Assembly (NCBI GenBank): GCA_945860065.1
Contig: CAMAPI010000001.1
Span: 1-64,000, forward strand
Direction: 5' to 3'
Length of the DNA stretch: 64,000 bases
DNA from: Chryseobacterium gleum
Lineage (GTDB): Bacteria; Bacteroidota; Bacteroidia; Flavobacteriales_D; Crocinitomicaceae
Positions 34,638 to 37,871 of this stretch are shown in pieces. Within the stretch, counting starts at the first letter, position 1. Every line of letters begins with the position of its first letter. Both the position numbers and the translations under genes were made by a program. The notes beneath the pieces are model-generated. The model had not been told where the DNA came from and ran no database searches. It saw only the letters and a program-made list of their open reading frames with translations.

Positions 34638-35663
34638 TTAGGAATGAAAAATATCATGTCCATAATCTTCTAAAAATCGGTCGATTGCTCTTGGAATCGG
34701 ATATTGGTGTAAATCCTCTAATTTAATAGGCTCTCCATCATCCAGATTCGTTGGATTCCTTAAAATAAAATGACAAAATAAATGTTGATGGGACAACACG
34801 TGTTTGTATTCTTTGGATTGGAAACTTGGCTTAACATCGGACAAATACCGTTCTTTCTCCTTCGGATCACTAAATTCTTTTAATGGAAATTGATACAAAT
34901 GCTGCCAAATATCTTTTTCATTTCGTTTTTCAAGAAGAATCCATCCGTTTTCGGGCTGGAGGATTTCAAACACAAAATAGCGTTGTCGAATAGTCTGCTT
35001 TTTCAATTTTACCGGAAGACTTCCAACAGTCTTTTCGGAAAAAGCGAGGCAATAAACAGAGATTGGACATTCCCCACACAACGGTTGTGAAGGTTTGCAA
35101 TGCAATGCTCCGAATTCCATCATGGCTTGGTTAAATATCCCGGGATTCTTTCGATCTAAAAGTTCATTGGCTAATTTCTCAAAATCTTTTTTCCCTTGTG
35201 TTGAATTAATGGGAATGGACCAATTGTTTAAACGACTTAGTACACGGAAGACGTTTCCATCCAGAACGGCATGTGGTAAATCAAACGAAAAAGAGGCGAT
35301 TGCGGCGGCGGTATATGGACCAACACCTTTGAGCTTCAACAAGCCATCATAACTTTCAGGAAACTTGCCATTAAATTCCTCGACGATTTGCTTCGCTGTT
35401 TGGTGCAAGTTGCGCGCACGACTGTAATAGCCAAGTCCTTGCCACAAATTTAATACGACTTGTTCATCCGCCTTTGCCAAGTCATACACACTTGGAAAAG
35501 CATCAATAAAACGGAAATAATAAGCCATTCCTTGTTCAACACGCGTCTGTTGAAGGATGATTTCGCTGAGCCAAATGAAATAAGGATTCCTGGTTTCTCG
35601 CCAAGGAAGGGCGCGTTTATGGACGTGATACCAAGTGCTTATTTCACCTTGAATTTGGTTCAT
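34638..35663 (-). CDS. mutY: A/G-specific adenine glycosylase
   Basis: ALPWRETRNPYFIWLSEIILQQTRV, LKGVGPYTAAAIASFSF, Fe-S ligands CKPSQPLCGECPISVYC. Confidence 0.95.
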   Translation of the reverse strand: MNQIQGEISTWYHVHKRALPWRETRNPYFIWLSEIILQQTRVEQGMAYYFRFIDAFPSVYDLAKADEQVVLNLWQGLGYYSRARNLHQTAKQIVEEFNGKFPESYDGLLKLKGVGPYTAAAIASFSFDLPHAVLDGNVFRVLSRLNNWSIPINSTQGKKDFEKLANELLDRKNPGIFNQAMMEFGALHCKPSQPLCGECPISVYCLAFSEKTVGSLPVKLKKQTIRQRYFVFEILQPENGWILLEKRNEKDIWQHLYQFPLKEFSDPKEKERYLSDVKPSFQSKEYKHVLSHQHLFCHFILRNPTNLDDGEPIKLEDLHQYPIPRAIDRFLEDYGHDIFHS

Positions 35664-35720
35664 TTGAAAAATAGTTTATAAAAAAAACAAGAAAATTAAC
35701 AATATAAAGTTTCTGTGATA

Positions 35721-35728
35721 TACTTTTG
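35721..35728 (+). promoter_or_regulatory. -7 element TACTTTTG for the HU-family gene
   Basis: TAnnTTTG match followed by CACC, 34 nt before the ATG. Confidence 0.5.
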
Positions 35729-35762
35729 CACCGCATTAAAAATCAATTAACATCAAGAAAAT

Positions 35763-36053
35763 ATGACAAAAGCGGATATCGTAGCTGACATTGCAGAAGA
35801 AACAGGTTTAGAAAGAAACGAAGCCCTTAGAGCTGTTGAGGCGTTTATGAACTCAATTAAATCGTCTTTGGCGAAAGGTAATAATGTCTATTTAAGAGGA
35901 TTTGGTAGCTTCGTTGTGAAAGAGCGTGCTCAGAAAACAGGACGTAATATCTCCAAAAACACGACGATTATTATCCCAGCTCACAACATTCCATCTTTCA
36001 AACCATCAAAAGTGTTTATTGATGAGGTAAAGAATAAGGTAAGCGTGAAATAA
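35763..36053 (+). CDS. HU/IHF-family DNA-binding protein
   Basis: MTKADIVADIAEETGLERNEALRAVEAFMNSIKSSLAKGNNVYLRGFGSFVVKERAQKTGRNISKNTTIIIPAHNIPSFKPSK. Confidence 0.95.
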   Translation: MTKADIVADIAEETGLERNEALRAVEAFMNSIKSSLAKGNNVYLRGFGSFVVKERAQKTGRNISKNTTIIIPAHNIPSFKPSKVFIDEVKNKVSVK

Positions 36054-36078
36054 GATTTCGATATTTCAAAATTTTATT

Positions 36079-36086
36079 TATCTTTG
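36079..36086 (+). promoter_or_regulatory. -7 element TATCTTTG for the 30-aa gene, overlapping the terminator hairpin
   Basis: TAnnTTTG match; its last G is the first base of the hairpin 5' arm. Confidence 0.5.
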
Positions 36087-36118
36087 CACTCCCTTTTTAG
36101 AGGGGGTGCATTTTTTTT
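36086..36118 (+). terminator. Intrinsic terminator-like hairpin GCACTCCC-TTTTTAGA-GGGGGTGC followed by A and T8
   Basis: 8-bp stem (one G-T wobble), 8-nt loop, 8-T tract; 32 nt after the HU-family stop. Confidence 0.7.
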
Positions 36119-36146
36119 GGATTGAAGTAACACTAAAATATATATT

Positions 36147-36239
36147 ATGCCAAGCGGTAAAAAAAGAAAAAGACATAAAATGGCTACGCACAAGCGTAAA
36201 AAACGTCTTAGAAAAAATCGTCACAAGAAGAAGAAGTAA
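36147..36239 (+). CDS. 30-aa highly basic ribosomal-type protein, AURKAIP1/COX24 (mS38-like) domain family
   Basis: MPSGKKRKRHKMATHKRKKRLRKNRHKKKK*; below the ORF-track length cutoff; has its own promoter and terminator-like elements. Confidence 0.8.
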   Translation: MPSGKKRKRHKMATHKRKKRLRKNRHKKKK

Positions 36240-36268
36240 TATCTTCTTATATTTGAGAAGAAAAGGGG

Positions 36269-36292
36269 GCTCATTGATTTCTTTCAGTGAGC
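36269..36292 (+). terminator. Terminator-like hairpin GCTCATTGA-TTTCTT-TCAGTGAGC followed by TTTCATTGTTTC
   Basis: 9-bp stem with one G-T wobble; 30 nt after the 30-aa ORF, before rng. Confidence 0.5.
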
Positions 36293-36323
36293 TTTCATTG
36301 TTTCATCCTGTAAACTTCTAATT

Positions 36324-37871
36324 GTGAACCTAGAACTCGTTGTCGATACCAGGTCAAATGGAATTTGGATCGCATTGTTGCGGGACGGCAAATTAATCGA
36401 ATTACACGAAGACCGTGGAAATTCAGACTTTGCTGTTGGCGACATCTATTTGGGAAGAGTACGTCGTGTAGTTCCTAGTTTGAATGCAGCTTTTGTTGAT
36501 GTTGGATACGAAAAAGATGCCTTCTTGCATTATTTGGACCTTGGTCCTCAGTATCACACTCTAGCTCGATTTGTTAAAGAATCGATGCAAGGAAAGCAAA
36601 ATGTCGCAGACCTGCAATATTACAAACTAGAGAAAGACATTCAGAAAGACGGAAAAATTAGCAATATACTCTCTTCATCGCAGCCCATTTTGGTGCAAGT
36701 TGCGAAAGAGCCTATATCCATGAAAGGACCTCGATTGAGCTCCGAAGTGACGCTAGCTGGACGTTATCTCGTTCTCGTACCTTTTTCAGATAAAATATCT
36801 GTTAGTCAAAAAATCAAAGATTCGAATGAAAAGGACCGCTTGAAGGACCTCATGAATCGAATCAAACCGAAAAACTTTGGTGTCATTATTCGAACAGTGG
36901 CTGAAAATAAATCTACCACAGATTTAGAGACAGACCTTGAAAACTTGTTGGAAAAATGGCGCGGAATGCACGCGAATTTAAAAGGAATTCAACCTCCTCG
37001 TCGTGTATTAGGTGAATTGAATACGACCACTTCTATTCTTCGTGATTTGTTGAATGGAAACTTTACCAATATTCATGTCAATGATCCAGCTTTAGCTTTG
37101 GAGATGAAGGAATACATTTCATCTATTGCGCCTGGACGTGAGAAAATCGTTCGTAACTACGAAGGTAAAATCGACATTTTTGAACGCTTTGCGATCAATA
37201 AGCAAATCAAAACGTTATTCGGCAAAAAAGTTCCCTTGCCTAGTGGTGGTTATTTGATTATTGAGCACACAGAAGCCATGCACGTGATTGATGTCAATAG
37301 TGGAAACCGCAAAGGTGCCGACGGACAAGAATCGAACGCGCTTGCGACAAACATGGAAGCTGCGGAAGAAATTGCGCGTGTTTTGCAACTGCGGGATATG
37401 GGTGGAATTGTTTGTGTCGATTTTATTGACATGCACGAAAAAGAAAACAACAAAATTCTCTTCGAAAAAATGAAGGAATTTATGAAGTCTGATCGTGCTA
37501 AACACAACATGATTCCTCCGTCAAAGTTCGGTATCATTGAAATTACACGTCAACGTGTTAGACCAGAAACGGACATTGAAACATCCGAGACCTGTCCTAC
37601 ATGTGATGGTAGTGGAGAAGTAACGGCAAGCATTCTTTTCTCGGAAGAAATCGAAAATAACTTGAGTTATTTATTGAACGATCGCAAGGAGAAAGGTGTA
37701 ACATTGTTGGTTCACCCGTACTTGGAAGCATTCTTTAAAAAAGGAATCATCAGCAAACAATGGAGTTGGTTCTTTAAATATAAGCAATGGATTCCGGTTC
37801 GTGGGTTAACTGCTCATCATTTATTGCAATATTCCTTCGTGAATAAATCCAACGAGGAAATTACCTTGTAA
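36324..37871 (+). CDS. rng: Ribonuclease E/G family protein (GTG start)
   Basis: VGDIYLGRVRRVVPSLNAAFVDVGYEKDAFLHY (S1), TEAMHVIDVNSG, GGIVCVDFIDM, CPTCDGSGEV. Confidence 0.93.
   Translation: MNLELVVDTRSNGIWIALLRDGKLIELHEDRGNSDFAVGDIYLGRVRRVVPSLNAAFVDVGYEKDAFLHYLDLGPQYHTLARFVKESMQGKQNVADLQYYKLEKDIQKDGKISNILSSSQPILVQVAKEPISMKGPRLSSEVTLAGRYLVLVPFSDKISVSQKIKDSNEKDRLKDLMNRIKPKNFGVIIRTVAENKSTTDLETDLENLLEKWRGMHANLKGIQPPRRVLGELNTTTSILRDLLNGNFTNIHVNDPALALEMKEYISSIAPGREKIVRNYEGKIDIFERFAINKQIKTLFGKKVPLPSGGYLIIEHTEAMHVIDVNSGNRKGADGQESNALATNMEAAEEIARVLQLRDMGGIVCVDFIDMHEKENNKILFEKMKEFMKSDRAKHNMIPPSKFGIIEITRQRVRPETDIETSETCPTCDGSGEVTASILFSEEIENNLSYLLNDRKEKGVTLLVHPYLEAFFKKGIISKQWSWFFKYKQWIPVRGLTAHHLLQYSFVNKSNEEITL

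Follow-up and report, generated by a model that had tools for sequence, protein, structure and literature searches.

A putative terminator–promoter joint between the HU and bS22 genes of Crocinitomicaceae

Bidirectional terminators and promoter-proximal attenuators are cases in which a single short hairpin is shared by two transcription units or lies near a start site. Here we describe a junction in the Crocinitomicaceae that resembles these systems in placing a single short hairpin at two units, or close to a start. It differs from them in that its two units are co-oriented, and in that the predicted start site cuts through the hairpin instead of leaving it inside the leader. A search of mainly open-access literature for overlapping promoters and terminators returned nothing directly comparable. 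The joint is compact and well supported by comparison, and the parts that it varies are already known.

The window, that is the whole stretch of DNA analysed, comprises 64,000 nucleotides; the genes and elements mapped on it below lie on the forward strand. The gene of an HU-family DNA-binding protein of 96 aa (35763..36053; Pfam Bac_DNA_binding, E 2.6e-29) is followed by that of a 30-aa ribosomal protein of the bS22/bL38 (AURKAIP1/COX24, mS38-like) type (36147..36239) and then by rng, a gene of the RNase E/G family (36324..37871; TIGR00757, 436 bits). The 30-aa reading frame was assigned through PDB chains 9i5v_10 (E 1.2e-10), 7jil_5 (E 3.8e-10) and 8fmw_V (E 1.1e-5), which are S22/L38 or AURKAIP1/COX24-domain proteins in solved ribosomes; its Pfam COX24_C score was under the cut-off. 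The HU gene is preceded by a -7-like element, TACTTTTG (35721..35728), that fits TAnnTTTG by sequence. An Rfam search of 35600-36500 found no family at its gathering score. Weak hits, to PyrR and others, seem to reflect resemblance to terminators, and a leader or riboswitch reading was dropped.

Where might transcription of the bS22 gene begin? The consensus of the primary sigma factor of Bacteroidota (sigma-ABfr/sigma-A) consists of TTTG at -33 and TAnnTTTG at -7 (PMC7366714, PMC9723704). The sequence TATCTTTG (36079..36086) is a sigma-A-type -7 box of this kind. Since the primary promoter box of Flavobacterium psychrophilum maps to -12..-5 (PMC9723704), the start (+1) is predicted near 36091. 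Enrichment of A 5 nt past the G of TAnnTTTG in this genome, 0.48 at +1 and 0.36 at -3, points to the same position; A36088, at -3, is the alternative. The candidate -33 element is TTTC (36056..36059, about -35 to -32), right after the HU stop codon; some species of the family have TTTG. A T-rich element at about -36..-33 is conserved among the family junctions, T being present in 84% at -35 and 90% at -34 (61 junctions), with TTTG or TTTC there in many. The putative promoter is thus like other Bacteroidota sigma-A promoters in its TAnnTTTG box, in a T-rich element about 22 nt upstream and in intergenic enrichment, the motif being 5.3-fold denser between genes than within genes of this genome. 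It is unlike them in that the bases after the box also form the outer part of a terminator's 5' arm, and in that the predicted +1 falls in a C-rich run of C and T instead of on a purine. This would be an unusual initiator, the nearest purine being A36088.

The terminator hairpin (36085..36110) takes its first bases from the end of the -7 box. Its arms, GCACTCCC (36086-36093) and GGGGGTGC (36102-36109), are closed by T85-A110 and continued by T94-A101 and T95-G100, giving 11 pairs and a 4-nt loop; a T8 tract follows (36111..36118). The last base of TATCTTTG, 36086, is the first base of GCACTCCC. The first-pass annotation had described a box at 36079-36086 running into a stem at 36086-36109 with T8 behind it, and this layout is exact to the base. 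The full hairpin folds at -18.3 kcal/mol (z -5.8), a value equalled by none of 200 shuffles. With its G+C-rich 11-bp stem, 4-nt loop, adjoining T8, position right after the upstream gene and co-varying stem, it has the features of an intrinsic (rho-independent) terminator. It departs from the usual form in that the final base of a conserved promoter box is also the first of the 5' arm, and in that the whole stem would be present only in transcripts that come from upstream.

We consider it probable that these elements form a shared terminator–promoter joint. Polymerase arriving from HU would copy the GCACTCCC...GGGGGTGC stem in full, then the T8, and halt there by intrinsic termination. A sigma-A-type promoter, its box ending on the first base of the stem, would initiate bS22 about 5 nt on, so that in the new RNA the 5' arm would be missing its outer 5 bases. 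Such an RNA should elongate, because the truncated arm cannot form a stem adjoining the T-tract. The RNA from 36091, CCCUUUUUAGAGGGGGUGCAUUUUUUUU, has a folding energy of -6.0 kcal/mol (z -1.1) and a stem ending about 5 nt short of the T-run, and on this model the transcript of the joint's own promoter would escape termination. The start position and the efficiency of termination are both predictions. Read-through from the same promoter would probably serve rng as well. About 40 bases would thereby both end the HU unit and begin the bS22 unit, and the joint would split two genes that are close neighbours without it in many other Bacteroidota.

Would such a joint insulate the downstream gene, as the first-pass annotation proposed? 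In one sense it would, by blocking read-through into bS22. The promoter itself would be left unshielded: with the T-run 20-27 nt beyond the predicted start, the geometry led us to reject protection of the promoter from passing polymerases. Since polymerases from HU cross the promoter before they meet the T-run, the joint would stop read-through, not promoter occlusion.

Two observations concern the gap between bS22 and rng. A second strong stem-loop with a poor T tail (36265..36296) was recognized there from sequence and folding, and most family members have a stem at the same place, though of very different sequence (GGCTCAGTGA/TCATTGAGC, AACTTAGTAGG/CTACTAAGTT and GTCCGTACA/TGTGCGGAC among the variants). 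It may act as a partial terminator and so fix the ratio of bS22 to rng, or it may belong to the leader of the RNase gene. We also considered TATATTTG (36249-36256) as a further promoter serving rng but dropped it, as it is not conserved in the sister species (L003-L007).

Could the overlap of box and hairpin be an accident? In 458 kb of this genome we counted 53 strong terminators and 729 TAnnTTYG, from which our arithmetic gives about 0.4 expected overlaps; one was seen. A single overlap therefore proves nothing. There is no genome-wide enrichment of overlaps either in these 458 kb or in 400 kb of a second genome (G017), where one weak case was found, and at one per 458 kb the overlap is not a general design of the genome. 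These figures would suit the reading in which the terminator alone works, TATCTTTG is a chance match and bS22 is made by read-through from HU, and so would the many other Bacteroidota in which the two genes stand 15-60 nt apart with a promoterless gap. The family comparison tells against it.

To make that comparison the HU–bS22–rng locus was fetched through the Rng gene from 95 of 100 relatives, together with named genomes. The named relatives by Rng protein are Crocinitomicaceae, Fluviicola and Brumimicrobium among them. The gene order persists far outside this family; there HU and bS22 usually have the short promoterless spacing just described or are separated by another gene. Within the family, TAnnTT(T/C)G is kept at a fixed distance upstream of bS22 in 62 of 63 distinct junctions. 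In 47 of the 63 a T-run follows a stem whose 5' arm begins 0-2 nt from the box's G. The T-run and outer stem are absent from the other 16, yet 15 of these still have the box. On a well-supported Rng tree, loss of the T-run requires 7 events, of which well-supported branches force at least 5. Since the box survives in nearly all junctions that lost the terminator, we conclude that the promoter is selected on its own account. The joint is not essential, because it was lost several times while the genes were retained.

These counts bear directly on the first-pass annotation. Its view of TAnnTTTG as a real promoter is well supported by them, and the alternative it allowed, that only the terminator works, is contradicted by the survival of the box. 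The reading by chance match is further opposed by the conserved T-rich element at -36..-33 and by tRNA clusters elsewhere in the order that the same box precedes (described below); we regard it as highly improbable. On the sequence comparison, conservation across the family rules out a chance origin of the overlap.

How is the stem itself maintained? Over 42 distinct sequences 95.8% of cells are paired, and 5 of the 10 pairs have changed on both sides. None of 500 shuffles did as well, and every slid register was worse. Variability is highest on the loop side (C-G/U-A, G-C/U-A/A-U), while the outer pairs are nearly invariant. Such compensatory changes, which occur separately in the tRNA context, and retention of the T-run in 47 of 63 junctions argue against a promoter that works alone, with stem and T-run as relics or neutral. 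That the terminator was lost 5-7 times and the promoter retained is what this reading would predict; we nevertheless find it barely credible.

A more discriminating test is offered by CACT at -4..-1. These bases lie upstream of the predicted +1, so only transcripts derived from upstream contain them. CACT is intact at 46 of the 47 loci with a T-run and at none of the 16 without (Fisher 5e-14, kinship ignored). Among phylogenetically independent pairs all 4 informative ones agree, a number with which the test (p 0.125) cannot reach significance. The sole exception with a T-run (L028) has CTCT and a matching change in the 3' arm. Since CACT tracks the T-run, the outer stem appears to be held for termination of upstream (HU) transcripts. 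Together with the covariation of the stem, this coupling supports the earlier proposal that the hairpin is a terminator for HU. At the level of sequence, then, the comparison shows a conserved promoter, a stem conserved with compensatory change and an outer stem that tracks the T-run.

The coupling of CACT to the T-run also bears on whether the hairpin is solely a 5'-terminal stem-loop of the bS22 mRNA, acting in stability or regulation, the T-run being incidental. Most loci do have a folded 5' end, at -4 to -10 kcal/mol from +1, and four promoter-only loci (L037, L040, L045, L046) keep an in-transcript stem with paired changes. But a stem-loop of the mRNA leaves CACT, upstream of +1, with no reason to follow the T-run so strictly, and the stem that remains from +1 is negligible at five loci (L034, L035, L039, L042, L047). 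We judge this reading very unlikely.

Other structures were seen in the HU–bS22 gap of particular species. The stem of the four promoter-only loci is a different one, lying wholly or mostly inside the predicted transcript and without a T-run; stems in promoter-only species include CCATTTTAA/TTAAAATGG, CGTTTTAAA/TTTAAAACG and CACCTGTT/AACAGGTG. A Crocinitomix-like genome (L150) has the box followed by an independent perfect hairpin, AAAACTTCCTGATAATCAGGAAGTTTTAT, that lies entirely in the leader, downstream of the start. Two loci of family f10 (L058, L064) carry a promoter-like TACTTTTGCAGTCC about 50 nt upstream of bS22, within the 3' end of a gene that stands between HU and bS22.

What if transcription began not at +1 but at A36088? 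The RNA would then fold at -10.6 kcal/mol, pairing ACUCCC with GGGGGU in a hairpin of 8 bp that ends 3 nt before the T-tract. On this model an attenuator-like hairpin would be left and partial early termination is possible: some bS22 transcripts would end after about 25-30 nt, and the element would set or regulate the output of bS22 and, elsewhere, of tRNAs. The A at -3, the sole purine near +1, shows 90% conservation. From -3 the family loci have a median fold of -9.5 kcal/mol and a gap to the T-run of 2 nt; in L038 and L051-L055 the stem starts exactly at -3 and abuts the T-run; and the layout recurs often at translation genes. On the other side, the flavobacterial box at -12..-5 (PMC9723704) and the enrichment of A at +1 (0.48), not at -3 (0.36), favour the downstream start. 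The CA after TTTG is kept in hairpin-less promoters too, and the usual retention of the outer G-C/C-G pairs, upstream of -3, is left unexplained. A start-proximal attenuator is therefore possible but unlikely, and we retain the shared joint as the preferred reading.

Is the layout confined to this junction? A covariance model of the joint found matches at further junctions in Flavobacteriales. A blind search of 249 genomes of the order with the pattern TTTGCACYC...GRGTGNTTTT matched 75 places, whereas the reversed pattern matched 7. Among 50 loci from this search, 44 form a stem of 7 or more pairs, and 43 of these have the full TAnnTTTG; of the 6 others, 1 has it. The best independent context is that of family f9, where TACATTTGCACYCC, stem and T-run stand ahead of a tRNA-Thr-Tyr-Gly-Thr cluster. 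Its variants, TACATTTGCACTCCC..GGGAGTG or TACATTTGCACCCC(C/T)..GGGGTG with a T-run, lie 72-80 nt before the cluster; a gene of the S30AE/HPF type (hpf) is just upstream wherever called, and an EF-Tu-type gene (tuf) is downstream in L291, L296 and L297. This stem co-varies independently (97.3% paired, 4 pairs with two-sided change, none of 500 shuffles matching its covariation). Single cases precede a TatA-type gene (L290), a TypA-like GTPase gene (L245) and, read by eye in a fragment without a Pfam match, a methionine aminopeptidase-like gene (L298); others lie between lipoprotein-like genes (L249, L250, L260). These sequences suggest that the shared stop/start layout was built more than once.

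In the rpsL leaders of one genus (L251-L256) we also noted, before the S12 gene, a hairpin close to the start whose T tail is weak: TATCTTTGCACCCCTCAAAG, with a co-varying 3' arm, GTTTGGGGGT or GTTTGAGGAGT, right after the box. That this is a looser form of the joint is a lead only.

These contexts permit a wider proposal, in which Flavobacteriales reuse the joint as a regulatory module (TAnnTTTGCACYCC, co-varying stem and T-run) at translation genes, with the choice of start, A(-3) or +1, as an on/off switch. The translation genes in question are bS22, tRNA-Thr-Tyr-Gly-Thr-tuf and the TypA-like GTPase, with rpsL in the looser form. If the proposal were true, a new transcript would carry a working terminator or not according to which of the two starts was used; we think the proposal decidedly unlikely.

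For the shared joint itself the comparison over dozens of species indicates that a terminator and a promoter of the same strand can share bases, so that the full stop signal would be carried only by the upstream transcript. Recurrence at unrelated junctions suggests that the layout is a compact means of separating two tandem genes. For Bacteroidota it would provide a ready-made insulating promoter part that can be tested, and a caution as well: predicted terminators in this phylum can conceal promoters.
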